Source of the DNA: a virus
Virus record (IMG/VR): IMGVR_UViG_3300046656_000635
Location: 1-28,006 of that record
Direction: 5' to 3' (one strand)
DNA: 28,006 nucleotides
Below the pieces are notes generated by a model. That model saw only the letters and a program-made list of their open reading frames with translations. It was not told the DNA's origin and did not search any database. Positions 1,555-28,006 of the stretch are shown piece by piece. Within the stretch, counting starts at the first letter, position 1, and the number at the start of each line of letters is the position of its first letter. A program made the translations under genes and the position numbers.

Positions 1555-1832
1555 GCGCCCACCATCTTGTAGCCGCGCGGCACGCCGAGCGTGCGTTCGG
1601 TCGCCGACCGATAGACCAAGAAGCCATCAATCACCGTGGCTTGCGTCCACGGTGAATCCCAATTGGGATCGCCGGGCGGCACCGTCCGTGTCTGTGAGCC
1701 GTCCGGTTCGACGACGATCGTCGAGCCGTCCTCGTTGACGCTGAGGGTTTTGCCGGGCGCGGCGGTCGAGGGGACGAAGGTGCACGGCACCAAGGTCGCC
1801 GGCGAATTCAGGTCGATGCGGTACGCTGCCAT
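1551..1832 (-). CDS. Small hypothetical protein with DPNW motif
   Basis: A 93-aa protein, mostly beta-strand-like and Pro/Thr-rich, with a central acidic strand pair (NEDGSTIVVEPDG) followed by PGDPNWDSPW. The start ATG at 1832 overlaps the previous stop (TGATG), so it is likely translationally coupled to the 475-aa gene. DPNW recalls the duplicated DPKDPNWGLP at the N-terminus of the large virion protein at 9031-12156; relatedness is unproven. Probably a small structural or accessory protein. No recognised family. Confidence 0.65.
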   Translation of the reverse strand: MAAYRIDLNSPATLVPCTFVPSTAAPGKTLSVNEDGSTIVVEPDGSQTRTVPPGDPNWDSPWTQATVIDGFLVYRSATERTLGVPRGYKMVGA

Positions 1833-3259
1833 CAGTGCGCCTCGTAAACGTGAATGACGGGGAGTAGCCCGTTTCCGAACAGTTCTGAGATGTAAATCCG
1901 GCCGGTCGCGGGATCATAGGCCGCGCCGCCGATCGACGCATTCGGGCCGAGGTTGGGCACGGTGAGCATGGTATACGGCTTGATGTCCCACGGAGCTTTC
2001 GTGCCGGCCGCCACCGCGGCGAGGTCGTTCGCGTCGAAGCCCCACCATGATGGGTTGTAGGGGTAGCCGTGCACGCCCTTGCTGCCGTTGGTCGGGTCGT
2101 AGCAGGAGCCGGACGGCGGCGGGGTCGTCGGTGAGCCGGGGCCGTAGCAGAACGTCGTGCCGTGGCGACCGAAGAACAGCACCGAGTCGAAGTTCGCCGG
2201 CATCGCGATGCCCGTCACCGTGTCGGAGCCGCCGAAGTATTGATTGGCCTGACTCCACGGTCCAAGGTTCTGGTGCGCGTCGGGATAGCCCACAAGCTCG
2301 ATGGCGCCCGGCGACGCGACCGCGGCCGGATCGAACGCCGCCGTCGACGGGCCGTAGGATGTTCGCGAGATGATGCCGAGACAGGCATTGCCGGTGAAGG
2401 CGCGGCCGCGGAACTTCCCCTGCCAGGCCGCCGGCACATCGCCCATGTAGCCCGAATAGAAGCCCGCGCCGAGCGGGCCCACCCGATACGGCCCGACCAC
2501 CGTCGCCGGCGCACTCGAGAGCAGCAGCGGCCGCCGGAAGTGCGAGACGACCTGGGAGCCGGTCGCATCGTAGTAATCGTACGCGCTGACCACGAGCGAA
2601 TCGCCGTCGACGAACGCGCCGCCGATGTTCTTCTGATTGACCGAGCCCGGGTTGATGTCGCTGATGCGCCCGCCGCACGGATCCACCGGCGGCTGGATCG
2701 ACTTCGCGGTCGCGCCGAAGGCCGGGATCGAGATTTCCCCGAGCGTGTGCGCGTTCACGAAGCCGGCGATGAACAACGACTGGTGCGCGGCGCAGAAGGC
2801 GAGCCGGCCCTGCGCGTAAGCATAGCCGCCGGCGTCGGGTCCGATGATGTTCGGCACCTGGAACGAGCCGAGGTGCACGAGGGACGTGACGCGCGTGCCG
2901 GGCGTCGGCGGCGCGAGCTGGTAGGTCGCCTCGACCTGCACACCCATCGCCGGCATCGTCACCGACGTTGACGGGGCGGTGGGCGCCGCGACCGGGCCGG
3001 TCCACCCCTTGAACACCTGCCCGGGCCCGGGCGGAAGCGCGACCACTGGCACCACCGTACCCGCCGGATAGTTCCCGCTGCCGCTGCCCGACATGACGAC
3101 CAAGGTGTACTGCGTCACCGGCGGCGGCACGATGCCAGCCTTCGCTTGTTCGATGAGACTGTCGGCGGTGGTGAGGTCCGCGTTGGCGGCGGTGAGGTGG
3201 GCGCGGGCGTCGGCGATTTGGTTCTGTGCGGCGGTGAGCAGTTCGGTCGGCGTCGGCAT
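1832..3259 (-). CDS. Coiled coil plus InlB-like repeat plus large beta domain
   Basis: A 475-aa protein. Residues 5-42 form a charged Ala-rich helix, likely a coiled coil. Residues 50-113 (from TLVVMSGSGSGNYPAG through FKGWTG to VTMPAMGVQVEATY) match the pattern of divergent InlB-type B-repeat domains: GSGSG, YPAGT, F.GW and MP...V...Y. The remaining 350 residues are Gly/Pro-rich with motifs such as GRISDINPGSVN and GGAAYDPATGRIYISELFG, suggesting a beta-propeller-like surface domain. The start ATG at 3259 has GGAG 6 bases upstream, making this the head of a translationally coupled run. There is no signal peptide. Likely a virion surface, adhesion or host-binding protein. The propeller assignment is inference. 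Confidence 0.65.
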   Translation of the reverse strand: MPTPTELLTAAQNQIADARAHLTAANADLTTADSLIEQAKAGIVPPPVTQYTLVVMSGSGSGNYPAGTVVPVVALPPGPGQVFKGWTGPVAAPTAPSTSVTMPAMGVQVEATYQLAPPTPGTRVTSLVHLGSFQVPNIIGPDAGGYAYAQGRLAFCAAHQSLFIAGFVNAHTLGEISIPAFGATAKSIQPPVDPCGGRISDINPGSVNQKNIGGAFVDGDSLVVSAYDYYDATGSQVVSHFRRPLLLSSAPATVVGPYRVGPLGAGFYSGYMGDVPAAWQGKFRGRAFTGNACLGIISRTSYGPSTAAFDPAAVASPGAIELVGYPDAHQNLGPWSQANQYFGGSDTVTGIAMPANFDSVLFFGRHGTTFCYGPGSPTTPPPSGSCYDPTNGSKGVHGYPYNPSWWGFDANDLAAVAAGTKAPWDIKPYTMLTVPNLGPNASIGGAAYDPATGRIYISELFGNGLLPVIHVYEAH

Positions 3260-9000: not shown

Positions 9001-9031
9001 GCCGCTGCTGAGACTTCGATTTTGCGGGCAT
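8855..9031 (-). CDS. DUF3008-like small protein
   Basis: A 58-aa basic protein beginning MPAKSKSQQRLMAAAAHG, with FARTKTKHLPNR near the C-terminus. MPAKSKAQQ at the start and D/EFAKTKHKGLP near the end are hallmarks of the DUF3008 family of small phage and bacterial proteins. The start ATG 9031-9029 overlaps the stop of the 1041-aa gene (TGATG). Its 3' 146 bases are convergent with, and antisense to, the end of the plus-strand cassette. It is the last gene of the late operon. The molecular role is unknown. Confidence 0.8.
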   Translation of the reverse strand: MPAKSKSQQRLMAAAAHGATFEKAAELRKSMTQRQLEEFARTKTKHLPNRTSNRYPRH

Positions 9032-12000
9032 CAGCGTTTCCCCTTCGGCCGTTCAGCCTTGTCGAGCGCCTCTTGTGCGGCCTCGAGCGCGCGTCGAGAT
9101 TTCAGGAACTCATCATCGCCGATCGATTTTGCCCGATACAGCTTCACTTTCTCGTTGTAGTCCGCGAGCGCTGAGCGCCAGGCGTTGACTGCCGACTGTT
9201 GCGAGGGCGTCCGGTCTGGAACGTCGTTGAACATCGTCGGCGTCGCGGGTTCAGCCGTCGACGAACCGCCGCCGGTGAGACTGAAATTCCCGCCGCTCGC
9301 CTGCTGCGGCGCCTTGAACGTCGCGGTCGACCCTTTACCGGCGACGCCGGCGCCCGGGAGCCGCGGCTGCGCCTCGCCGGTGTCGAGTTTGTCGACGATC
9401 GGTTCCGCGGCGATCGCGTCGACGGCATCGGAGAACGCCGCGAAACCGTCGTCGACGTCGGGGCCAGGGTTCCCGCGGCCGGCGATGTCCCGTTCGGTGT
9501 GGTACACCAGGTCCGCGAGCGCGCGCGCCTTCCGTTCCGCCGCCGACTCGGCGCCCGTCCGCGCCGCTTTCTGCACGGCTTCGGTGAGGTCGTTGATGGT
9601 CTTGATCTGCTGAAATTTCCCGTCCTGCTTCAGCGCCTCGAGCATCCCATCGAGCGATAGGCCGCCGAATGGCACCTTCCGGGCGCCCTGGCCCATCGCG
9701 ACGCGCTGCATGTTCATACGCTTCACGTCGGCGCTGTTCCGCGAGAGGTCGCGGAAGACGCCGCGGACGCCGTTTGCCGCGTCGCCGTCCTTGAACTCCT
9801 TCAGCCAGGCAATCTCGCCCTTCTGCGCACTCTCGGCGTTGACGGAGATGCCGCCGTACTTCGCGATGGCCTTGAGCAGCCCGGTGCCGGCTTCGTCCCC
9901 CGCGGCCGCGTCATGGTGCAGTTGTTCGATGCCCTGTAGATCCTCGACGAGCTTTGCGCGGATCTGCGCGGGCGAGTCCGGGTGGCCGGCCTCGACGTAC
10001 CGCTGCGTCAGTGTATCGAGGGTTTCGTCCCGAAGACGTGCGGCAGCCTCGCGTGCTTCCCTGAAATGTACCCGCGGAGGGTTGTTGCGTGGCGCACCCG
10101 GTTCAGTGCCGACTCGAGGCTGTGCCCCTGTCGGCGCAGGTGTAGAAAGTGGCTGATTTGCTGATGGAGCAGCCGCGTCAGCGGACTTGAAGACCTTCGC
10201 ATACACGCCTTTCACGGCCCGTACGAACGACGGGTCGTCCTTGGCCGGCACGCCGGCATCTGTCACCCATTTCGACGCCGCGGCTTCCGGCGGTAGGGGA
10301 CGCGGCCATTGCGCATCAGCCGGGATCTGCGGACCCACGCGGTCGCCGCGCCGCACCTTGCCCTTGGCGTCGACGACGAAGGTCGGCGGTTTCGGGAGTC
10401 CCTCGCGCATCGCGGTGCCTTCGTACACGTCGACGGGCGCCGCGGCCGGTGTGGCGGCCGGCGCGGGCGGGAGCTCGCCGACGCCGCTGGTGGTGCCCCA
10501 GGGCCCGGTCTGCGGTTTCGGTCCCCACGGTTCGCCCGGCTTGCCGCCTTGATTCCACCAGGAGTTCGGCACGCCGTTCCGACGCCCCCATTGCTCCCAG
10601 GTTTCCCCGGGCCGGCGCGGTGGCGGCTGGCTGCCCCCGGGACGCGCGCCGCCGGCCGAGGGTCCAGACGGGCCCGCGCCGGCCGATGTCGCGCCAGGCG
10701 CCGCCTGTGGCCCGCCGGGTTGGCCTGTAGGGCCAGCGCCGCCCGGGGCCGCGCCAGCGGCTTGTGCCGGCCCGGCACCAGGAACGTGCGCCGGCATCAT
10801 CGGAAAGCTCAGATTCGGCGCCGGCTTCATCAGCCGGAAGGCTTTCGCGACCGCTTCGTCAATGGTCAGCCGCCGGTTCAGCTGCTTGGAAACCACCTTG
10901 CCGCCGAGATATTTCGCGGCTGTCGTTTCCAGCGCATCTTTCGCGGCCTGTTTCAGCGGGCCCGGGGGCGCCGCGGTCGATCGGACCAGCGTGGTGCCCT
11001 TCCCCTCGACCTTTTCGGCGATTTGTTGGAGCTTGATGACGGCCGCCTGGTCCTGTCGGAACGCCTTCACGCCCGGTACGCCTTGCGAGGTCAGCCCCTC
11101 GTCGATGCCATTGCGCAGCGATGTGGCGAGCGCATCGAGCGCGGCATATGCCGGGTCGGTGGCGAGCATGTCGGTGCGGACGCGCCGCGCCGCCTGCGGG
11201 CCGAGCCGGTCGTTGAGCTGCTTGTTCACCGATGTCAGAATCTCCGCGGCATCGGGAATCGAGATCGGATCCGACACCAGCCGCGTGCCGACCACCTTGC
11301 CGTTCTGCACGATCGGTTCGTAGTGGCCGAGTTGCGGGTACAGCTTCAGCACCGTGCCCCGCCCCTGCTGCACGAAGCGGCTGCCCGGGCCGCCGCCCCC
11401 GATCGGGTTCGACGCGCCCGCGGTGGCGATGTCCCGCAGCGGTTCGGTCGGGATGTCGACGTGGCGGAAGTTCTGCGCGATGCCCTTGACGTGCTCGTCC
11501 ATGTCGTGCGACGTCTGCCGAAGCCGCTGCGCGACCTCATCGCCGGACACGATCGGGTTCTCCGGTGTGTGGGACGTCCACAGCCGCGCGATGGCGGTGT
11601 GGTACTCCGGTTCCGTGATCTGGCCGGCCTTGCGAATGTTCAGCGCATCCGAGAGTTCGTTGAGCCCGACCTGATGCCGGCGGTTCGCGGTGATGTTCTT
11701 CACGAAGTCGCTGAAGGTGCTGCCCACCTCGGCTTCCGGCAACGGCAACACCGGCATCGGGCCCTTGCCCTCGGCAAATGCCTTCGTGCCGAACGGATCC
11801 TCGCGCTGCACTTCTTTCGGCCGCTCCGCGTTCGCCCCGAAGATCGTCCGTCGCACGACGTCAAGGATATTCATCGTCGTCAACGGCTTGTCGACGTAGC
11901 GGTCGCCAAGCTTCGGCGCACCGATCGTCTCCGCGTGCTGCCACGGACTGTGCGGGGTGTTTTCCTCGTCGATCGGCACGCGCACGCCGTTCACCATCGC

Positions 12001-12156
12001 GAAGTTCATCGCGCGGGTGCCGGCGGGCGGCGCGGGGGCCGGCAATCCCCAATTTGGATCTTTGGGATCAGTGACGACACCGGCGGCCGCGGGAGCCGCC
12101 GCGACCGGCAGCCCCCAATTCGGATCTTTGGGGTCGGTGACGATCTGGTCGCTCAT
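9031..12156 (-). CDS. Large ejection-type / internal virion protein
   Basis: A 1041-aa protein. ATG 12156 is chosen because it forms ATGA with the previous stop; an ATG 7 codons upstream is in frame but overlaps the previous gene further. The N-terminus contains two copies of TDPKDPNWGLP, 22 residues apart. Then come about 400 residues of mixed helical sequence, a Gly/Pro/Ala-rich disordered region (about 450-640, with repeated PGG, GPS and PWG), and a helical C-terminal part (about 690-950). No enzymatic motif such as a lytic transglycosylase was found. Its size, low complexity and place after the connector, tailspike and gp10-like genes fit a podoviral internal/ejection protein that enters the host with DNA. 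Confidence 0.75.
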   Translation of the reverse strand: MSDQIVTDPKDPNWGLPVAAAPAAAGVVTDPKDPNWGLPAPAPPAGTRAMNFAMVNGVRVPIDEENTPHSPWQHAETIGAPKLGDRYVDKPLTTMNILDVVRRTIFGANAERPKEVQREDPFGTKAFAEGKGPMPVLPLPEAEVGSTFSDFVKNITANRRHQVGLNELSDALNIRKAGQITEPEYHTAIARLWTSHTPENPIVSGDEVAQRLRQTSHDMDEHVKGIAQNFRHVDIPTEPLRDIATAGASNPIGGGGPGSRFVQQGRGTVLKLYPQLGHYEPIVQNGKVVGTRLVSDPISIPDAAEILTSVNKQLNDRLGPQAARRVRTDMLATDPAYAALDALATSLRNGIDEGLTSQGVPGVKAFRQDQAAVIKLQQIAEKVEGKGTTLVRSTAAPPGPLKQAAKDALETTAAKYLGGKVVSKQLNRRLTIDEAVAKAFRLMKPAPNLSFPMMPAHVPGAGPAQAAGAAPGGAGPTGQPGGPQAAPGATSAGAGPSGPSAGGARPGGSQPPPRRPGETWEQWGRRNGVPNSWWNQGGKPGEPWGPKPQTGPWGTTSGVGELPPAPAATPAAAPVDVYEGTAMREGLPKPPTFVVDAKGKVRRGDRVGPQIPADAQWPRPLPPEAAASKWVTDAGVPAKDDPSFVRAVKGVYAKVFKSADAAAPSANQPLSTPAPTGAQPRVGTEPGAPRNNPPRVHFREAREAAARLRDETLDTLTQRYVEAGHPDSPAQIRAKLVEDLQGIEQLHHDAAAGDEAGTGLLKAIAKYGGISVNAESAQKGEIAWLKEFKDGDAANGVRGVFRDLSRNSADVKRMNMQRVAMGQGARKVPFGGLSLDGMLEALKQDGKFQQIKTINDLTEAVQKAARTGAESAAERKARALADLVYHTERDIAGRGNPGPDVDDGFAAFSDAVDAIAAEPIVDKLDTGEAQPRLPGAGVAGKGSTATFKAPQQASGGNFSLTGGGSSTAEPATPTMFNDVPDRTPSQQSAVNAWRSALADYNEKVKLYRAKSIGDDEFLKSRRALEAAQEALDKAERPKGKR
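12041..12144 (-). repeat. In-frame direct duplication encoding TDPKDPNWGLP
   Basis: Two near-identical 38-nt units (12041-12078 and 12107-12144), 66 nt apart start to start, share GGCA.(C/T)CCCCAATT.GGATCTTTGGG.TC.GTGACGA. Each encodes V-TDPKDPNWGLP. The period equals 22 codons, so the duplication keeps the reading frame. It sits at the N-terminus of the 1041-aa virion protein. Confidence 0.9.
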
Positions 12157-13811
12157 CGCGGCTTCGTCAACGACCACTCACGGCCGTTCCAGTAGCGCGT
12201 TTCGGCGCCGACCGTACGCGCGGTGCCGATCACCGGTCCCGCCGGTGCCGCGGCCGCGGGCGGCGCGGTGGCATAGCCGGCCCGTTTCAGGATCGTGTCG
12301 AGGATCGGCTTGTTCTTGTCGTAGATCACCGGGATGTCGGCGCCGTGCGGGCCGAGCGCGACATCGCGCTGTTCCTCGGTCGAGTCGAGTTTTCCCTTGA
12401 TCAGACTGACGAACTGCGCGAGCCCCTCGACCTGCTGCTGGTGTCCCAGGTTCGAGCCGAGTGATGCCTTCAGCGCGTCAATGTCGCCTTGGCTGCCGCC
12501 GGCGCCGCGCCACAGCCGCTCGATTTCTTTCATGAGCTGCGGCTGCACCGCCTCGAAGTTCGTCGCTTTGGTCGAGCCGAACTGTTTGCCCAGGCTGTTC
12601 TTCACCCAGTTCGCGATCGGGTACTCGGTGTTGCCTTCCTTCTCGATGAGTTCCGAGAGCACGCCGGCGTGCTGCACCGCGGTGTTCAGCGCGTTGATCG
12701 TCTTGCCGCCGGTGCCGTTCGGGGACGTGAGGTCCGCGCGCGCCTTATTCCGCGCGTTGTAATTCGTCGCGTCGAACGTCGGATCGTACTGCGTCACCAG
12801 CCGAATGAGGGGCTCGAGCCGGTAGCCGGCGACGCCGGTCGGCATCGCGCGGCGGCCTTCCGCATACGATTTGATTTCGGACGCGAGGTCCGGGCGCGTC
12901 TCCGACAATTTGTCGATGAAGGCTTGCCCGCTGAGTCCTTGGAGTCCCGCGATCGTATTCGCCGCCGCCACCCCTTGATACGGCGACGCGCCGCCGGTCG
13001 GCGCGGGCGGTGCCGCGGTGCCGCCAGTCGGCGCGGGCGCGGTGCCCCGTTCGCCCGGCACCGGGATCGGGGTCTGCGCGCCGTACATGCCGAGCGGGTC
13101 GAGGCTGAAGTTGTAGCGGCGTACATCGAGGTCGTACTGACGATCCGCGCGCCGCTTCGCATCGACCTGCGCGGGCGTCATGCCGAACTTCGCGGGGTTG
13201 TTCGCCTGGTAGCCGGTGAACCACGCCGACTGTTCCGGCGTGCGAAGTCCCGGCGGGATCGACTGGATGTTGATCGCCTTCGCTTCGATTTCTGCCGTGG
13301 TCGGCGGCTTCGGCGTGCCCGTCACCACCGTTTTCACGCTGCCGTCGGATTGCTGCACGACGCCCGTTCCGCCTTCAGGAATGACCGTGATCGGCTGCAC
13401 CGGCTTGGTCAGCTTCGCATGGATGTCCTGAATCGTGGTGACGAGCTCCGGGTACTTGCTCTGCTGCGCCGCCGCGATGGCGGCCTTGTCGTCGAAGGTG
13501 TTCGGGTCGGCCTGGAATCCGGCCTCGATGATGCCCCGCAACGTCTGTTCTTTTTCCTGATTCTGAAGATACCCCGTCTGTGTGCGAGCTTCTCCCGCCG
13601 CCTGGCGCGTGTCCTCGTTCTGGCGCAGTCGGAGGGCTTCATTCTGGCGCGCGTTCTCCTGGTCGACGAGCGCCTTGCGTTCGCGGTCGACGATCATCTG
13701 CGCGGGAATCGCCGACGCCCCCGCCACCGTGTCCCCGATAATGGCGCCGCGCGCCAATTGCTTCCGCCCCGCGTTCTCCGCAAGGCGCGTCAGAATCTCC
13801 GCGTCACTCAT
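12153..13811 (-). CDS. Internal virion / DNA ejection protein
   Basis: A 552-aa protein with a helical, Gln/Arg/Glu-rich coiled-coil region at about residues 40-95 (RERKALVDQENARQNEALR). A Pro/Gly/Ala linker follows (about 255-290, with two PAPTGG-type repeats). The C-terminal helical region includes INALNTAVQHAGVLSELIE, a pattern I associate with podoviral internal virion proteins (ALNTAxxHxGxL...). The C-terminus ends TRYWNGREWSLTKPR. ATGA overlaps link it to genes on both sides. A role in DNA ejection is inferred from context and the helical motif. Confidence 0.75.
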   Translation of the reverse strand: MSDAEILTRLAENAGRKQLARGAIIGDTVAGASAIPAQMIVDRERKALVDQENARQNEALRLRQNEDTRQAAGEARTQTGYLQNQEKEQTLRGIIEAGFQADPNTFDDKAAIAAAQQSKYPELVTTIQDIHAKLTKPVQPITVIPEGGTGVVQQSDGSVKTVVTGTPKPPTTAEIEAKAINIQSIPPGLRTPEQSAWFTGYQANNPAKFGMTPAQVDAKRRADRQYDLDVRRYNFSLDPLGMYGAQTPIPVPGERGTAPAPTGGTAAPPAPTGGASPYQGVAAANTIAGLQGLSGQAFIDKLSETRPDLASEIKSYAEGRRAMPTGVAGYRLEPLIRLVTQYDPTFDATNYNARNKARADLTSPNGTGGKTINALNTAVQHAGVLSELIEKEGNTEYPIANWVKNSLGKQFGSTKATNFEAVQPQLMKEIERLWRGAGGSQGDIDALKASLGSNLGHQQQVEGLAQFVSLIKGKLDSTEEQRDVALGPHGADIPVIYDKNKPILDTILKRAGYATAPPAAAAPAGPVIGTARTVGAETRYWNGREWSLTKPR

Positions 13812-14806: not shown

Positions 14807-16134
14807 CAGGCCGCTGCTCCTACCAGCGTCGCGCCGCGCGCGATGTAGTGGTCAGCATCTTTCTTCGTCACCGTCCGCTGTGAGCCGTCGGGCGCCTGAA
14901 TCGTCACCATCTCCGGTGCCGCGGGCTCCGCCGCCGGCGGGGTGCCGGCATCACGCGGAAGCGGCTGCGTGCCGTACTGCGCCGCCCCCTGCACGCCGCC
15001 GTAGCCCTTCCCCGCGCCATCGCCGATGCTGATGCGGTGCTCGTTCCAGTCCGCGCCGGTCGTGTCGAACCCGCCGTGTAGCGCGTTGATGCCGTACCAG
15101 TAATTCGGGTCGTCGCTGGAATTGTATTTCTTCAGGAGCGCATCGACCTTGGCTTTGTCTTCCGGCGCGAGCTTGTCGGCGTACTGCGTCGGATCCGACG
15201 AGGCGTTGCCGCCGCCGAGCGGCTGAATTGACGGGGCCGCGCCGCCGGGAAGTCCGAGCAGGGCCGCCATGCGCGAGCCGGCCGCGTTCCCCCGTTGCAC
15301 GTAGGGCGCGATGTTGTTCTGAAAGTCGCCGTAGCGACCGGCTTCGCGCGCGATGTTCCCCGCGTCCTTTTCTTTCTCGTACGCCAGGGCTTCTTCGAGA
15401 TACTTCTGCTGCGCGTCGCTCGCCTTGCCCGCGGCGATCGACTGGATGATGCCGCTGGCGATCGTGCCGGCGGTCGGCAGTCCGTAACGCAGCAGGTCGC
15501 TCGAGGTCGACGCGGCCGCGACCGGCGGCACGGCTTCCGGCGCGACGCCGGCGAAGTTCGTCACGACGCCGCCGGGCCCATAGGTCGCCGGCGGGATGCC
15601 GCCCGCGGCCGTCGGCGCCGCCGCACTGGCACCCGCGCCCGCCGCGGCCGGCGCCGCCGCACTCAGGCCAGTCGAGAGCGCCGCCGGCGCCGCCGCGTTG
15701 GACGCCGCCGCTGTGGCCGCGATGTTCTCAGCCGTCGAGGGTCCGAGCGCCGCGGTGCCGCCGCCGCCGATCGCGCCCGCCGCCGCGGGAATCGCCCAGG
15801 CCGCCGCCACCGGCCCGAACGCCAGCAGCGATCCCAAGGCGATGTCGCGGACGTTGTGCATCGGCCAGGAAACCACCCCGTTGTTGTCGATTTCCAGATT
15901 CGTCGGGTCGATGCCCTGCTGTTTCAGCAGCGAGAAGAATTGCTGTTGCTCGCCGTCCGACAGGTTCCGGCCGCCGTTGTGGCCCGACAGCCAGATTTGC
16001 ACGGCCGGGCGCGACCGGATGAAGTCGTTGATGGTCCCCGAGGTGGTGGCGTTCTTCGCTTGCCATTCCGGGGTCGCCTGGTCTTCCGCGGGCGCCTGTG
16101 ACCCTTGGTTGGGGTCGTTCGGATCGTAAGGCAT
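14806..16134 (-). CDS. Ala/Gly-rich ejection-type virion protein
   Basis: A 442-aa protein from ATG 16134, which overlaps the preceding stop (TGATG). The N-terminus MPYDPNDPNQGSQ recalls the DPKDPNWG motif of the 1041-aa protein. Residues about 95-130 are hydrophobic (ALGSLLAFGPVAAAWAIPAAAG), then a long Ala/Gly/Pro stretch. A helical AAGKASDAQQKYLEEAL segment follows, then a polar C-terminal domain ending with VTKKDADHYIARGATLVG, a small peptide motif frequent in phage ejection proteins. The hydrophobic, amphipathic character suits a protein that forms part of a trans-envelope DNA channel. Inference from context and composition. Confidence 0.72.
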   Translation of the reverse strand: MPYDPNDPNQGSQAPAEDQATPEWQAKNATTSGTINDFIRSRPAVQIWLSGHNGGRNLSDGEQQQFFSLLKQQGIDPTNLEIDNNGVVSWPMHNVRDIALGSLLAFGPVAAAWAIPAAAGAIGGGGTAALGPSTAENIAATAAASNAAAPAALSTGLSAAAPAAAGAGASAAAPTAAGGIPPATYGPGGVVTNFAGVAPEAVPPVAAASTSSDLLRYGLPTAGTIASGIIQSIAAGKASDAQQKYLEEALAYEKEKDAGNIAREAGRYGDFQNNIAPYVQRGNAAGSRMAALLGLPGGAAPSIQPLGGGNASSDPTQYADKLAPEDKAKVDALLKKYNSSDDPNYWYGINALHGGFDTTGADWNEHRISIGDGAGKGYGGVQGAAQYGTQPLPRDAGTPPAAEPAAPEMVTIQAPDGSQRTVTKKDADHYIARGATLVGAAA

Positions 16135-16733
16135 CAGATCGTCACCCAATTCGTGCCGTCGAAGAACACCGGACCCACGACCAACCCGCCGCCGACGGCT
16201 GGCGCGAGATATGCGGGCGCGAGCAGGTTCGTACAGAACGCGAGATCCCCCTGCACACCCACCGGCAAGCCGAGCACAGTATAGCCCTTGAGCGTCACCG
16301 GGGCGACGAGTGTGCGCGTCGCGGCCGCCACGAAGGCCGTCGTCGCGATCGTCGTGTCCGCGTCGCCGGGCGAGGCGGTGGGCGCCTTCGGATCGCCGGT
16401 GAACGTCGGCGAGGCCAGCGGCGCGAGTAGGGCCAAGGCCGCGACGAGGCCGGTGATGTCGGCCTGTGGAATCGTGGTGACGGTCGAGGGCGTCGCGTTG
16501 CCGAGCGCCACCGCGATTTTCAGATAGCCGCTGACCAGCGCACCGAGGTTGCGTTCGTTCGACAACAGGGCTTCAGCGGTCGACACCCAGTACGAAGCGT
16601 CGGCCGGCGCCGAGCCGTCGGCAATCTGTGTCGTCGCCTGTAGGAACCACTCTTGCCACGGCAGGGCCATTTCGCCGTTCTTGTCGAGCAGCGCGACGTT
16701 GAACGGGGGCGGTTGGACGTTTGCGCTACTCAT
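16134..16733 (-). CDS. Short tail fibre protein
   Basis: A 199-aa protein from ATG 16733, coupled to the gp10-like gene by ATGA. The central segment ADASYWVSTAEALLSNERNLG (45-64) is typical of phage receptor-binding and tail-needle proteins. ASPTFTGDPKAPTASPGD and TTIATTAFV (107-135) form the classic tail-fibre repeat signature found in many phage side-tail-fibre proteins. The C-terminus is beta-rich, ending FFDGTNWVTI. By position it is most likely a thin trimeric fibre or tail needle at the distal tail. Confidence 0.8.
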   Translation of the reverse strand: MSSANVQPPPFNVALLDKNGEMALPWQEWFLQATTQIADGSAPADASYWVSTAEALLSNERNLGALVSGYLKIAVALGNATPSTVTTIPQADITGLVAALALLAPLASPTFTGDPKAPTASPGDADTTIATTAFVAAATRTLVAPVTLKGYTVLGLPVGVQGDLAFCTNLLAPAYLAPAVGGGLVVGPVFFDGTNWVTI

Positions 16734-18199
16734 AGCGCCCCCGTTCCTGGCCGCGCTTTCATCCAGAGGCCCGGACCCCACACGCGCCGCACCGGGTCGC
16801 TCTGAAACACCTCGAGCACGAGCCGATCGGCCCGGGCGCGTCCGAGCTTGTACCACACCGCGCGCGTCTCGTATTCCCCCTGCGCGCCGAGCGTCGCCCA
16901 CCCGATGAACAGGAACGTGTGCCCGCCGTCGTAGCTGACACGCAGCCCGACGACCGGATTGATGCCCTGACCAGCGATGAGGCCGACACCGGCCTGCATT
17001 CCAAGCTCGAGCCGATCGACGAACACCCACTGGTTCTCGGCCGAGAGATACGGCGCGCGGCGCATGCTGACGATGGTGCTGCCGTCTTCGGTGAACGCAT
17101 CCATGTCGAGCTGGTAAATCTTCCCGTTGTACCAGTCGCCGCATAGCAGGATGCCCGGCGAGCAGATGCCGCGAACGCGCCACTTTTGATCTTGGCCGAG
17201 GTCTTCGTTGTACGACGACCGCTGGTGCCACTGTTGCTCGCGCGCGTCCCATCCCCACGACTCACCGGCGTCGCCGCCGCTTGGGCAGGTCCAGATCGCG
17301 AACGGATGGCCTTCCTGCTCGTAGATGGCGAGCTCGACGTCGGCCAGCGTCGGGTACTGCGCGATGGCGAAGGCGATCGCCGGCGTCGAAATCACCTGCG
17401 GCACATAGTCGGTCGCGCGGACCATGCGCCCTTTGCCCTCGTTGTCCTGCGCCATCCAGACCACGGACTCGCCTTGCACCGCGACCGCCCACATCGACAC
17501 GACACCCTCTTGGAAGATGCTGCCCGGGTACGGCACGAACGGGTTGTCGGCGTCCCCGCTGTCGTAGTAGACCTGGCCGGTCTGCGAGCCGAGGATCCAG
17601 ATGCGGTTGCGGAAGACCACGCCGCCGACGATGTTGTCCGAGGTGTTCGAGCGCGCGAAGAAATCGAGCGCGTCCCAGGTCGTGCCGTCCTCGAGGTTCG
17701 AGAACCACGTCCGCACGGAGTTGCGTTCGCCGAGGATGAAATAGCCGTCGATGAACAGCAGGAATGACGGCGCGTTGGTGAGCGGCAGGGCAATCGGCCC
17801 GCTGAGCACGTTGGTCAGCAAGTCGAAGATTTGGAGTTCGTTCGCGCTACGAATGGCGAGCTGCTCGCCGCCGCGGCCATTACTGGCGAAGAAGACGGGT
17901 TTCCCGTCGTCAGTGACGGAGCCGACCGGGGTCGCGACGGCCGGCGAGACGGTCGTGTCGTACTCGTACAGCACGGTGCCGTTGACGGACCAGGTGCGGC
18001 CGTCCTGCTGGAACATGCCGCGGCCCTTGCCGGTGACGGTGGTTTGCAGCGTGAGGCCGGGCGTGCCGTAGTAGTTGAATTTCTTCGCGTCGCCGGCGGA
18101 TTCGACCGTCTCGAGGAAGACGTTGCGCGCGATCTCGTTATTGATGATCGGCGAGCGCGTCCGGTACGCCGGCCCGATGAAGCTCGCGACCAAAGGCAT
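16730..18199 (-). CDS. P22 gp10-like packaged DNA stabilisation protein
   Basis: A 489-aa beta-rich protein of the Phage_stabilise (P22 gp10) type. Supporting segments include FFARSNTSDNIVGGVVFRNRIWILG, GDWYNGKIYQLD, DRLELGMQAGVGLIAGQG, and LRVSYDGGHTFLFIGWATLG followed by LGRARADRLVLEV near the C-terminus. In P22 this tail hub protein sits between the gp4 collar and the gp26 needle and closes the DNA channel after packaging. The gene order here (gp4-like upstream, fibre/needle downstream) matches that role. Start ATG 18199, 2 bases after the tailspike stop. Confidence 0.85.
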   Translation of the reverse strand: MPLVASFIGPAYRTRSPIINNEIARNVFLETVESAGDAKKFNYYGTPGLTLQTTVTGKGRGMFQQDGRTWSVNGTVLYEYDTTVSPAVATPVGSVTDDGKPVFFASNGRGGEQLAIRSANELQIFDLLTNVLSGPIALPLTNAPSFLLFIDGYFILGERNSVRTWFSNLEDGTTWDALDFFARSNTSDNIVGGVVFRNRIWILGSQTGQVYYDSGDADNPFVPYPGSIFQEGVVSMWAVAVQGESVVWMAQDNEGKGRMVRATDYVPQVISTPAIAFAIAQYPTLADVELAIYEQEGHPFAIWTCPSGGDAGESWGWDAREQQWHQRSSYNEDLGQDQKWRVRGICSPGILLCGDWYNGKIYQLDMDAFTEDGSTIVSMRRAPYLSAENQWVFVDRLELGMQAGVGLIAGQGINPVVGLRVSYDGGHTFLFIGWATLGAQGEYETRAVWYKLGRARADRLVLEVFQSDPVRRVWGPGLWMKARPGTGAL

Positions 18200-22444: not shown

Positions 22445-23197
22445 TCAGTAGTTTCCGGTTTCGATGTTGTAGCCGCCGCCGGGCGCGTTCACGAAGTCGT
22501 TCGCCATGTCGTACATCTTCAGGTTGTTCCGGGTGATGACCTTGAAGCTGTGAAGCTGCGCCTGGATCATGCCTTCGGTCAGCTCCGCGCCCCACGGTGT
22601 CGACAGGTCAATGACGAGCTGGTCGTGAATCGCCTTGTCGTAGCCGACCGGCACTTGGTAGATCGTCGTCAGGTCCGCGAAGTTCGTCAGCGCCTTCCGC
22701 ATGTAGAGCACGAGGTCGTTGACCACCGTGTTCGGCACCGGCCAGAGGTTGACCGTGCCGAAACCCGATGTCACAAATGTCGGGTTGTAGTACACCCCGG
22801 TGAACATCGAGTTCGGCATTTCCTTAATCGAAATCGCCTGATACGCGCTGTCGGTGAGCACGTCGCGCGGCACTTCGACGCGCGGCGCCCCCGCGTTGCT
22901 AGGCAGGAGAATGCCGGCGCCGTATAGCGCCGCCTGGTTCGGCGGGGCTTCCGTGTTCAGGTTCGCCCCTGAGCCGATGGTGTAGGGATTCGACGGCCCG
23001 CCCTTGCCGACCGTCAGCGTGAATGTTTCACGTGAAACACATGGGACGGTGAACGACTGCTGCGCCCACAGTCCCATGAGCATGTTCAGGTACATCAGCG
23101 CAAGGTTCGACTGGTCCGGCGGAATCGACTGCGCCGGCTGAAAGACGTTCAGGGTCGTGAACGCCAGTCGAATGAGTCCTTGCGCCGTGACCTGCAC
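22445..23197 (-). CDS. P22 gp4-like head-tail connector; contains parS
   Basis: A 250-aa protein of the podoviral tail accessory / head completion type (P22 gp4-like). It has an N-terminal helix bundle (ALMYLNMLMGLWAQQ), then FTLTV...NPYTIGSG and NLWPVPN, a central domain with DLVLYMRKALTNFADL, and QVPVGYDKAIHDQLVIDLS near residue 190. Such proteins ring the portal exit after packaging and bind gp10. The start is GTG 23197 (AAGAG 8 bases upstream), just past the beta-helix gene's stop. Codons 53-58 embed a perfect parS palindrome and are unusually A/T-ending for this gene. Confidence 0.82.
   Translation of the reverse strand: MQVTAQGLIRLAFTTLNVFQPAQSIPPDQSNLALMYLNMLMGLWAQQSFTVPCVSRETFTLTVGKGGPSNPYTIGSGANLNTEAPPNQAALYGAGILLPSNAGAPRVEVPRDVLTDSAYQAISIKEMPNSMFTGVYYNPTFVTSGFGTVNLWPVPNTVVNDLVLYMRKALTNFADLTTIYQVPVGYDKAIHDQLVIDLSTPWGAELTEGMIQAQLHSFKVITRNNLKMYDMANDFVNAPGGGYNIETGNY
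23024..23039. promoter_or_regulatory. parS: Perfect canonical parS site (ParB-binding)
   Basis: TGTTTCACGTGAAACA is a perfect 16-bp palindrome identical to the conserved bacterial chromosomal parS consensus bound by ParB/Spo0J. It lies within the connector gene, over the last base of codon 53 and codons 54-58 (GTT TCA CGT GAA ACA). All five end in A or T although neighbouring codons mostly end in G or C, which argues the DNA site is conserved for its own sake. No parA or parB gene is visible in the window, so host ParB is the simplest binder. I saw no second exact copy. Confidence 0.85.
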
Positions 23198-24347: not shown

Positions 24348-24818
24348 GTGCCGAAATTCATCGATCTAACTGGTCGTCGATTCCGTCGTCTACTTGTCGT
24401 CTCCTACGCTGGCGGTCCTCGCGGAAAGTGGCTGTGTCGCTGCGACTGTGGTACCGAGAAGCCCATCGCCGGCGGTCATCTTCGTTCCGGTGCGACGGTT
24501 TCCTGCGGGTGTCAGGTGCCCGACAACTGCCGTGAGAAGAATCGCACCCACGGTCAGTCGAGAACCCCGACGAACATCTCTTGGCTGATGGCGAAAAACC
24601 GTTGCTTCAACCATCGGACGCCTCGATACAAAGACTACGGCGGTCGCGGCGTCACGATGTGCCAACGATGGAAAGACTCGTTCGCCGCCTTCCTCGCCGA
24701 CATGGGGCCAAGGCCAATCGGCACCACGCTCGACCGCTGGCCTAACAACGACGGCCACTACGAACCCGGCAATTGCCGGTGGGCCACCGTCACCGAGCAA
24801 AACCGCAACAGACGCTAG
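24348..24818 (+). CDS. HNH-type homing endonuclease-like protein
   Basis: A 156-aa protein from GTG 24348, which gives the family-like N-terminus VPKFIDLTGRRF; an ATG at 24341 is in another frame. A zinc-binding part has CRCDCG (30-35) and SCGCQ (52-56). The nuclease part reads NISWLMAKNRCFN, YGGRGV (97-102), CQRW (105-108), DMGPRP (118-123) and LDRWPNNDGHYEPGNCRWA (128-146), the typical HNH/homing-endonuclease arrangement. It is the only plus-strand gene within the late minus-strand operon. This suggests a free-standing homing element inserted between structural genes. Its TAG stop is shared within a CTAG palindrome with the convergent small gene. Confidence 0.9.
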   Translation: MPKFIDLTGRRFRRLLVVSYAGGPRGKWLCRCDCGTEKPIAGGHLRSGATVSCGCQVPDNCREKNRTHGQSRTPTNISWLMAKNRCFNHRTPRYKDYGGRGVTMCQRWKDSFAAFLADMGPRPIGTTLDRWPNNDGHYEPGNCRWATVTEQNRNRR

Positions 24819-26158: not shown

Positions 26159-27382
26159 TTACGATTTCCCCTGCGCCCGCAGCGCGAAGTACGGCAACAC
26201 CGGCGCCACGCCGACGATCATGTCGACGCGCGACGGCATCTGGTCCGTCTGGATGTTGTACTGCTCGACCCACCGCATCGAGAGCTTGGCGTCGGCGTCG
26301 TTCTTGCGCGCCGCGACCGCACCCGCGAGCTTGACCGGCAGATCCGCGATGACGAACGCGAACGCCGCCGGGTTGAAGATGAGCCCCTGCTTCGACGTCA
26401 CCGCCGTCATGGTCGCGTTGACCGCGCCGGTCGCGCCGACGAAGTTCAGCGCGGCATTGTCCGCGGGCGACGCCGTGACCGTCTGAAGCTGGCCGCTCGT
26501 GATGATCGCCGGCGAGATGGTCAGCGTCGCGGTGCTCGATCCGGCCAAGTCGGCTTGGATCGAGAACTGCTGAAGCAGTCCCGAATCGTCGTATGACAGC
26601 GGGTTCACGCCGTTCACGCCATCGATCGTGAAGATGTCGCCGGCCTTGAACGAATACGTGCCCAGGCCGTCGATCGAGAGCGTCGAACCCGTCTGCCCGG
26701 CGCCGACGATGGCCGGCGAGCTCGAGTTGAACGAGCCCTGCGTGTGGGTCGGCATGTTCGGGTCGTAGAACCAGTCGTCGACCCCAAGCGCGGCCGCGGA
26801 GAACTGGCCGGTCGAGAAGTACTCCTGATACTGCTTGCCGAACAGCGCGAAGTTCGCCGCGAGCAGCTTGCTTTGCGCGGTCGGGGTGATGACGGCGCAG
26901 AGTTCTTCGGGAACCCCGTACTGCCGCATGATGGCGACACCATCGGTGTACGTCTCATCCGACGTGATGTTCGTGCCGGGGACGCCGATCGAGAAGTACA
27001 CCGACTGGTACACCTCGCGGCCGGCCTGCACGTCGGCCTTGTTCGCCAGCGCCACCGCGGACGCCTTGGTGTACCGCTGCACTTCCTCGACGACGAGCGC
27101 GTCGTCGGCCGATGACCAGCCGCACCCCACCTGGTACTGGTGGTTCAGCGAAATGGGCACCGTCTGGTTGATGATCGGCTGCTGCTGAAGGGCCTGGCCT
27201 TCGTTCACGACCATGCGGGGCGGGAGCCGCGCCTGCACCGTGAAACCGATCTGGGCGCCCTTGGGCTTGTTCTCCCACTGGTTGTCCCACGATCGATCGA
27301 AGCGACCGACCAGCTTGATGCTGTTTTTCCAGTTGACGGCGGTATCCGTCGTCACCCAGGCCGGAGTGATAAACGTATTCAT
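26159..27382 (-). CDS. P22-type major capsid protein
   Basis: A 407-aa coat protein of the P22 gp5 family (HK97 fold). Recognisable are SIKLVGRFDRSWDNQW (N-terminal arm), LPPRMVVNEGQALQQQ, QTVPISLNHQYQVGCGWSSAD, AALANKAD-like ASAVALANKAD, and the C-terminal KLSMRWVEQYNIQTDQMPSRVD. An inserted beta domain (about residues 245-300, with AGDIFTIDGVNGVNPLS) corresponds to the I-domain of P22-like coats. Start ATG 27382 has AGG 7 bases upstream. It follows the scaffold-like gene, as expected for a P22-type morphogenetic order. Confidence 0.9.
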   Translation of the reverse strand: MNTFITPAWVTTDTAVNWKNSIKLVGRFDRSWDNQWENKPKGAQIGFTVQARLPPRMVVNEGQALQQQPIINQTVPISLNHQYQVGCGWSSADDALVVEEVQRYTKASAVALANKADVQAGREVYQSVYFSIGVPGTNITSDETYTDGVAIMRQYGVPEELCAVITPTAQSKLLAANFALFGKQYQEYFSTGQFSAAALGVDDWFYDPNMPTHTQGSFNSSSPAIVGAGQTGSTLSIDGLGTYSFKAGDIFTIDGVNGVNPLSYDDSGLLQQFSIQADLAGSSTATLTISPAIITSGQLQTVTASPADNAALNFVGATGAVNATMTAVTSKQGLIFNPAAFAFVIADLPVKLAGAVAARKNDADAKLSMRWVEQYNIQTDQMPSRVDMIVGVAPVLPYFALRAQGKS

Positions 27383-27415: not shown

Positions 27416-28006
27416 TTAGCGGCGCTTTTTGCTGTAGTACGCTTCGTGTTCCGCGATCGAAGCGTCTTCGCCGGGTGGTTCGTCCATCGCGACGTTCATT
27501 GGTCCTGTCCGCACCGGAGTCGGCGGGCGAGGAAGCCGGGTAGCTGCTGTGGCGGGCGCGGACGCTCCGGTCGTGCCGTCCGGCGAGGCCCCTGGTGCGA
27601 GTCGTCGCGCAAGCGACGTGAGAGCTTCGAGCTGCGGGTACGATCCCGTTGCCGGGTCGAACAGGCTCAACGCCATAATGGAGTCGAGCTCCGCAGGGTT
27701 CTTTTGCAGATGATACAACACGTCGAGCCCGGGTTCGGCTTCGATGATGTAGTTGTCGATCATGCTGCCTTGTGGGATCCGCGTCGGCGCGTAGGCGACC
27801 CGTTCGAAGTCGCCGTACTTCGCCTTCGCGCCGACCTCGCGACGCGCCCAGGATGTCGCCAGCCGGGTTTTCTCGGCGGCAATCGTCGTGGCAGCGTGGG
27901 CGTCAGCGGCGCGGGCGTTCGCCTCGCGGATTTCCTGGCGGGCTTCCCACCGCGCTTGGTCCTTGACGTAGTTTTTTTCCGGCGCGTCGACGTAATCGGC
28001 CGGGTT
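27416..28006 (-). CDS. Scaffold-like assembly protein, 5' end cut by window
   Basis: At least 196 aa. The reading frame stays open to the right window edge, so the ATG at 27763 is internal, not the start. The upstream part is a charged helix (KDQARWEARQEIREANARAAD). It continues with GDFERVAYAPTRIPQGSMIDNYIIEAEPGLDVLYHLQKNPAELDS. The C-terminal half is Pro/Ala-rich and ends with a basic helix (AYYSKKRR), as coat-binding C-termini of scaffolding proteins often do. IDNYI..EPGLDVLYHL..NP.EL is a segment seen in phage scaffolds encoded just before P22-type coats. Scaffold identity is inferred from location and motif. Confidence 0.68.
   Translation of the reverse strand, partial: NPADYVDAPEKNYVKDQARWEARQEIREANARAADAHAATTIAAEKTRLATSWARREVGAKAKYGDFERVAYAPTRIPQGSMIDNYIIEAEPGLDVLYHLQKNPAELDSIMALSLFDPATGSYPQLEALTSLARRLAPGASPDGTTGASAPATAATRLPRPPTPVRTGPMNVAMDEPPGEDASIAEHEAYYSKKRR

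Follow-up and report, generated by a model that had tools for sequence, protein, structure and literature searches.

Why should a phage virion gene contain, base for base, the site at which bacteria load their chromosome partition protein ParB? The question is raised by a perfect 16-bp palindrome, TGTTTCACGTGAAACA, at positions 23024-23039 of the IMG/VR record IMGVR_UViG_3300046656_000635. The window analysed here is this entire record of 28,006 bases. The palindrome is the bacterial chromosomal parS consensus as attributed to Livny et al. (2007) in PMC10197239. After binding parS, ParB closes around the DNA as a CTP-dependent clamp, slides along it, and recruits ParA and SMC (PMC8367383, PMC8494293).

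A parS sequence within a connector gene

The exact match described in the initial annotation was confirmed. It is a single copy, the sole site at up to three mismatches on either strand of the 28-kb record. Base composition predicts 7e-7 copies per window and a first-order Markov model 2.6e-6; redrawing synonymous codons with the window's own proteins kept gives 8.3e-7. All three apply to a site picked by a reader and possibly noticed among many windows. The figure given before, 28000/4^16 = 6.5e-6, was of the right order and slightly generous. That the 16-mer is a functionless accident, helped by a V-S-R-E-T reading at that place in the protein, appears unlikely to us; an expectation of about 1e-6 per window speaks against it, while the way in which the site was picked, possibly from many windows, speaks for it.

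parS falls in frame within a minus-strand gene (22445-23197, GTG start, 250 aa) that matches phrog_12985 (5e-20). Phage relatives detected by tblastn are annotated as "tail accessory factor" or "head completion adaptor", and the family profile matches P22 gp4 structures over residues 4-48 (E = 3e-5). The gene order coat ... gp4 ... Hc3 also agrees with membership in the P22 gp4-like head-completion proteins, and the earlier identification of a gp4-like connector was right. On the same strand are genes for the head closure Hc3 (P22 gp10-like) protein (16730-18199; phrog_578, 1e-81), the P22-type major capsid protein (26159-27382; phrog_283, 7e-45; PF11651, 9e-15), and a head scaffolding protein truncated at the record end (27416-28006; phrog_8865, 2e-11), and a tail spike gene is nearby as well. 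The source of the window is a P22-like podovirus.

Neither a terminase nor a portal gene was found in the 28,006 bases, and the record is therefore probably incomplete. A search with PF02195 (ParB_N) identified no ParB-like gene in this probably partial genome. A phage-plasmid ParABS module would have parA and parB next to parS, but here no ParB_N domain was found and the neighbors are virion genes. The suggestion that the virus segregates as a phage-plasmid is thus unsupported by the window, which probably covers only part of the genome. The host could not be read from tRNA genes, none of which were found in the window, and no host or prophage relatives were found among the genome contigs.

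Some parS-bearing records in INPHARED and IMG/VR resemble host DNA, which raises the thought that a chromosomal parS may have entered this assembly as a contaminant or in a chimera. In this window, however, the motif is read in frame within an intact gp4 gene, the protein aligns without gaps on both sides, and the surroundings are a cluster of virion genes. This context in effect refutes contamination of the window, and we regard the idea as hardly credible.

Several other features of the record were noted in passing. An HNH endonuclease ORF (24348-24818, plus strand; phrog_374, 2e-52), probably encoding a homing endonuclease, lies within the virion gene block on the opposite strand. The C-terminal part (16134-16730, minus strand) of the ORF 16134-17258 matches tail-fibre families; the remainder overlaps the Hc3 gene, so that the true gene start is probably later. 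Also on the minus strand, 1832-3259 encodes a 475-residue protein with an InlB B-repeat-like domain, and 9031-12177 a 1048-residue protein without a PHROG match.

The codons that spell the site are exceptional for the gene. Read on the minus strand, 23024-23044 is a row of seven codons ending in A or T, CCA TGT GTT TCA CGT GAA ACA (P-C-V-S-R-E-T), in a gene with a GC3 of 0.84. The second-longest such run in the same gene comprises 2 codons, and the maximum in the other virion genes tested was 2-6. The probability of a run of at least seven A/T-ending codons was 0.0002, and the joint synonymous probability of the VSRET codons was 4.4e-6 under the phage's own codon usage. The claim that the motif is written in off-bias codons was borne out.

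The site in relatives of the phage

The gp4 protein as a single query in IMG/VR found no relatives. A profile of Hc3 and the capsid protein did, yielding 80 and 49 relatives, respectively, with 1.6 Mb in total. Neither TGTTTCACGTGAAACA nor a version with one mismatch was present in the loci of these 129 relatives (whole records for a subset), and only two sites with two mismatches were found, in L172 and L360. Even the nearest relative, L349, with 62% identity in gp4 and 86% in the capsid protein, lacks parS. Either the site is a recent acquisition of this lineage or the other lineages have lost it. The initial annotation proposed, as a check, to see whether related connectors conserve the 16-mer; they do not, the motif being absent from all relatives, of which the nearest has 62% protein identity. 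On the sequences compared, the absence of parS down to this identity in gp4 is a lineage-specific gain or loss and silent on selection within the lineage.

The peptide, in contrast to the DNA motif, is ordinary for the family. The homologous position typically reads [VI]-x-R-E-x-F, which resembles VSRETF, in ordinary codons: VIAREVF in L349 (GTC ATT GCG CGC GAG GTC TTC), ISRNRF in L125 (ATC TCG CGC AAT CGC TTT), and ISREEF in L171 (ATC AGC CGG GAG GAG TTT). A purely peptide-driven motif was rejected, since relatives encode similar peptides by other codons. Insertion of the motif was likewise rejected, as the gp4 alignment is gap-free at parS and relatives align on both sides of it.

These comparisons bear on two statements of the initial annotation. 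The first was that related connectors with the same amino acids in varied synonymous codons would count against selection at the site. Similar amino acids in other codons are indeed what the relatives have, but their divergence is too great to bear on selection within this lineage. The second was that the DNA motif, not the peptide, is favored, and this is well supported, because relatives spell similar peptides differently, because VSRETF is ordinary for the family, and because unrelated phages use the very same five codons (see below). An accidental origin draws on the same data, as the site is absent in relatives and as a family-typical peptide leaves only synonymous luck to be explained.

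In a few relatives, codons resembling a half-site occur at the homologous place, namely CGT GAA ACA in the gp4 genes of L387-L389 and L396, and GTT TCG CGG GAA in those of L391 and L395. These could be remnants or precursors of parS.

A related podovirus, L360, whose gp4 is 45% identical, has a perfect TGTTCCACGTGGAACA at 1661-1676; the scaffold gene there encodes T-V-P-R-G-T, part of a linker. We take TGTTCCACGTGGAACA to be the palindrome typical of Pseudomonas parS. L360 is thus a second family member with a natural parS variant, located in a different virion gene.

parS sites in other phages

Phage collections were queried with the N-padded 16-mer and, as controls, two permuted palindromes of equal composition, of which the first was judged too unlike parS, while the second keeps the CACGTG core. 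Exact parS was found in 286 of 50,697 INPHARED records, and neither control palindrome occurred there at all. In IMG/VR, at least 120 matches were listed for parS, whereas the control palindromes gave 1 and 11. Of the loci from a further, narrower scan, 11 had already appeared in the first, and capture-recapture gave a lower bound of about 1,300 IMG/VR stretches, provided that the first 120 matches sample the collection fairly. Grouping by flank placed the 277 IMG/VR sites whose flanks were complete in 221 clusters, indicating that most contexts are independent. Since RefSeq duplicates and clades make the records interdependent and host DNA is evidently among them, such as the Listeria LM 4-xx fragments and an Acinetobacter MD-2021a transporter gene, the counts show enrichment, not prevalence. 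With 0-11 matches to permuted palindromes per whole collection and hundreds to parS, a random phage parS match should far more often than not be non-accidental, which argues against chance in the window as well. A padded 30-mer found no match in the plasmid collection, a larger one, in which a 16-base match probably lies beyond the E limit of 10.

A ParB_N match was present in only 4 of 50 parS-bearing IMG/VR records; in another set of 50, largely the same records, 23 have a terminase match. Of 12 named phages that were checked, a ParB_N protein is encoded by two Microbacterium phages and, as a weak match, by the Arthrobacter phage, so that the sites in these phages may serve a phage protein.

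The parS variant appears to track host type, though the match is partial. TGTTTCACGTGAAACA in INPHARED occurs mostly in phages of Listeria, Microbacterium, Arthrobacter, Gordonia, and Lactobacillus, with Gram-positive hosts in the lead, and TGTTCCACGTGGAACA and TGTTCCACGTGAAACA are commonest in Pseudomonas phages. Ten Klebsiella records have a Pseudomonas-type parS and are, among the matches listed, mostly RaK2/K64-1-like jumbo phages. Enterobacteria have, to our knowledge, no chromosomal ParB, and the Klebsiella phages therefore indicate that a parS match alone is no proof of function. That some matches may be meaningless lends weight to an accident in the window too. In several of the RaK2/K64-1-like Klebsiella phages (H281, H282, H296, H298, H307, H309, H315, and H325), the site lies in a baseplate wedge gene.

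In other phages, too, the site is spelled within coding sequences. The codons GTT TCA CGT GAA ACA recur in the endolysin gene of B103-like (phi29-like) phages, the portal gene of Arthrobacter phage Ranunculus (GC3 0.90), a Microbacterium phage HTH gene, and RobinRose gp90. In the Microbacterium HTH gene, parS is kept in an indel-rich linker at 71-78% nucleotide identity; Metamorphoo was misaligned in this comparison and has its parS at a later point in the linker. Phage phi29 (L330) has four TGTTTCACGTGGAACA sites, at 10445, 15903, 17243, and 18760, which lie in gene 10 (connector), in gene 15, just past gene 16, and in gene 17, and which fit the B. subtilis parS consensus TGTTNCACGTGAAACA. 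All TGTTTCACGTGGAACA codons are identical in the connector genes of phi29, B103, and Chedec 11, compared to a gene-wide codon match of only 43-49% at identical residues. At the level of sequence comparison, this is direct evidence that phages of the phi29 family preserve parS as DNA within the connector gene, a conservation within the clade that was not found for the phage of the window.

The location in the middle of a virion operon invites the thought of a local effect, in which ParB loaded at parS spreads and represses or times the late (virion) genes, or brings in condensin, which would obstruct transcription or packaging. Spreading of ParB from parS is established (PMC8367383). However, sites in other phages share no position; they are found in early and late genes, in replication and lysis genes, and in intergenic stretches. 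We consider a local role distinctly improbable.

The number of copies per genome also varies, from a single one in some of the other parS phages to five or six in filamentous inoviruses. This variation is relevant for the idea that the site is a decoy. Multiplying phage genomes would bring hundreds of parS into the cell and titrate ParB clamps off the chromosome, disturbing segregation, origin organization, or division. Many parS-bearing INPHARED phages, such as the Listeria P100-like and the phi29-like ones, are virulent and present in high copy number, as a decoy would have them be. One site per genome would suffice when genomes are numerous, and its position in the genome would be irrelevant. 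Against this, one-site phages side by side with five- or six-site inoviruses give no hint of a dosage rule, and the role reported for phi29, as far as the citing paper relates it, is positive genome capture, not poisoning. On balance, a decoy seems unlikely, but it is the alternative that we take most seriously.

Some arrangements deserve mention in their own right. The 5.8-kb filamentous inovirus L218 (bajarodino virus 69) has five exact parS, at 712, 1182, 2767, 4108, and 5764, each followed by TT and three of them directly after a gene end. Glutamicibacter phage Voltaire (L336), a phi29-like phage of an actinobacterial host, has two exact sites three bases apart (8742 and 8761) between its amidase and tail genes. 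In Listeria phage P100 (L211), parS at 1501-1516 overlaps the GTG start of gp159, and the motif is present in dozens of P100-like Listeria phages.

Proposed recruitment of host ParB and known systems

We think it probable that parS at 23024-23039 is a loading site for host ParB. The site is best read as recruiting that protein, given the precedent of phi29 and the partial match between parS variant and host. The substitutions that created parS would have fallen where the family peptide [VI]-x-R-E-x-F was already near V-S-R-E-T, so that selection on the DNA could install the motif cheaply for the protein. The ParB of the host chromosome, a CTP-dependent DNA clamp, would bind the 16 bp on the phage DNA, close around it, and slide outwards, giving a partition complex without a phage ParB. 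We infer such binding for the host of this phage. More tentatively, coupling to host ParA and SMC might then cause infecting or replicating genomes to be placed, kept, or segregated with the nucleoid, in the way that Spo0J reportedly acts for phi29 during sporulation.

The sequence context favors function, by the excess of parS over permuted palindromes, the variant site in L360, and the conservation in phi29 connectors. Speaking against a loading site are the 129 relatives, none of which has it, the single copy compared to four in phi29, and the chance that the motif was picked among many windows.

Whether the finding extends beyond this phage is, in our estimate, evenly balanced. The broader proposal is that tailed, filamentous, and micro-viruses, including virulent phages of non-sporulating hosts, widely capture host ParB and condensin by bare parS sites, often in structural genes, with the variant tuned to the host ParB. 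Phi29 would be the sole worked example and the phage of the window an independent recent recruit. If this is true, 16 bp, with no gene spent, let many phages pass off their DNA as host chromosome to the segregation and condensin-loading machinery. This would offer a common handle on the place of phage DNA in the cell, on the persistence of virulent phages in non-lysogenic states, and on possible phage interference with chromosome segregation. The proposal is directly testable in site-bearing pairs, such as phi29 with B. subtilis, Listeria P100, and the Microbacterium and Arthrobacter phages, and the parS variant could be used as a bioinformatic clue to host type.

The known case is that of phi29: according to PMC9437464, which cites Meijer et al. 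(2005), host Spo0J (ParB) has a part in trapping the phage DNA inside spores. In the open-access literature consulted, no account of chromosomal-type parS in phages was found beyond citations of the phi29 work. Members of the phi29 family (Salasmaviridae) are, like the phage of the window, tailed, and have parS in the connector gene, among others. They are without a ParB of their own, and no ParB gene was found in the probably incomplete record of the window. The two differ in that phi29 has four dispersed sites and a sporulating host, whereas the window has one site in 28 kb, in a P22-like podovirus lineage in which no close relative shares it. Bacterial chromosomal parS is the same 16-bp palindrome, but is located near the replication origin, whereas the candidate site is in a phage virion gene. 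Phage-plasmid ParABS systems, such as those of extrachromosomal mycobacteriophage prophages (PMC7157519), likewise place a centromere-like site on a phage genome. The window differs from them in that its record has no ParB_N gene and in that its site is of the host-chromosomal type and in a structural gene. Finally, CtrA sites in alphaproteobacterial phages (PMC9437464) and Spo0A sites in phi29 are also phage-borne sites for a host cell-cycle protein, but they regulate promoters, whereas the parS of the window is embedded in coding sequence.
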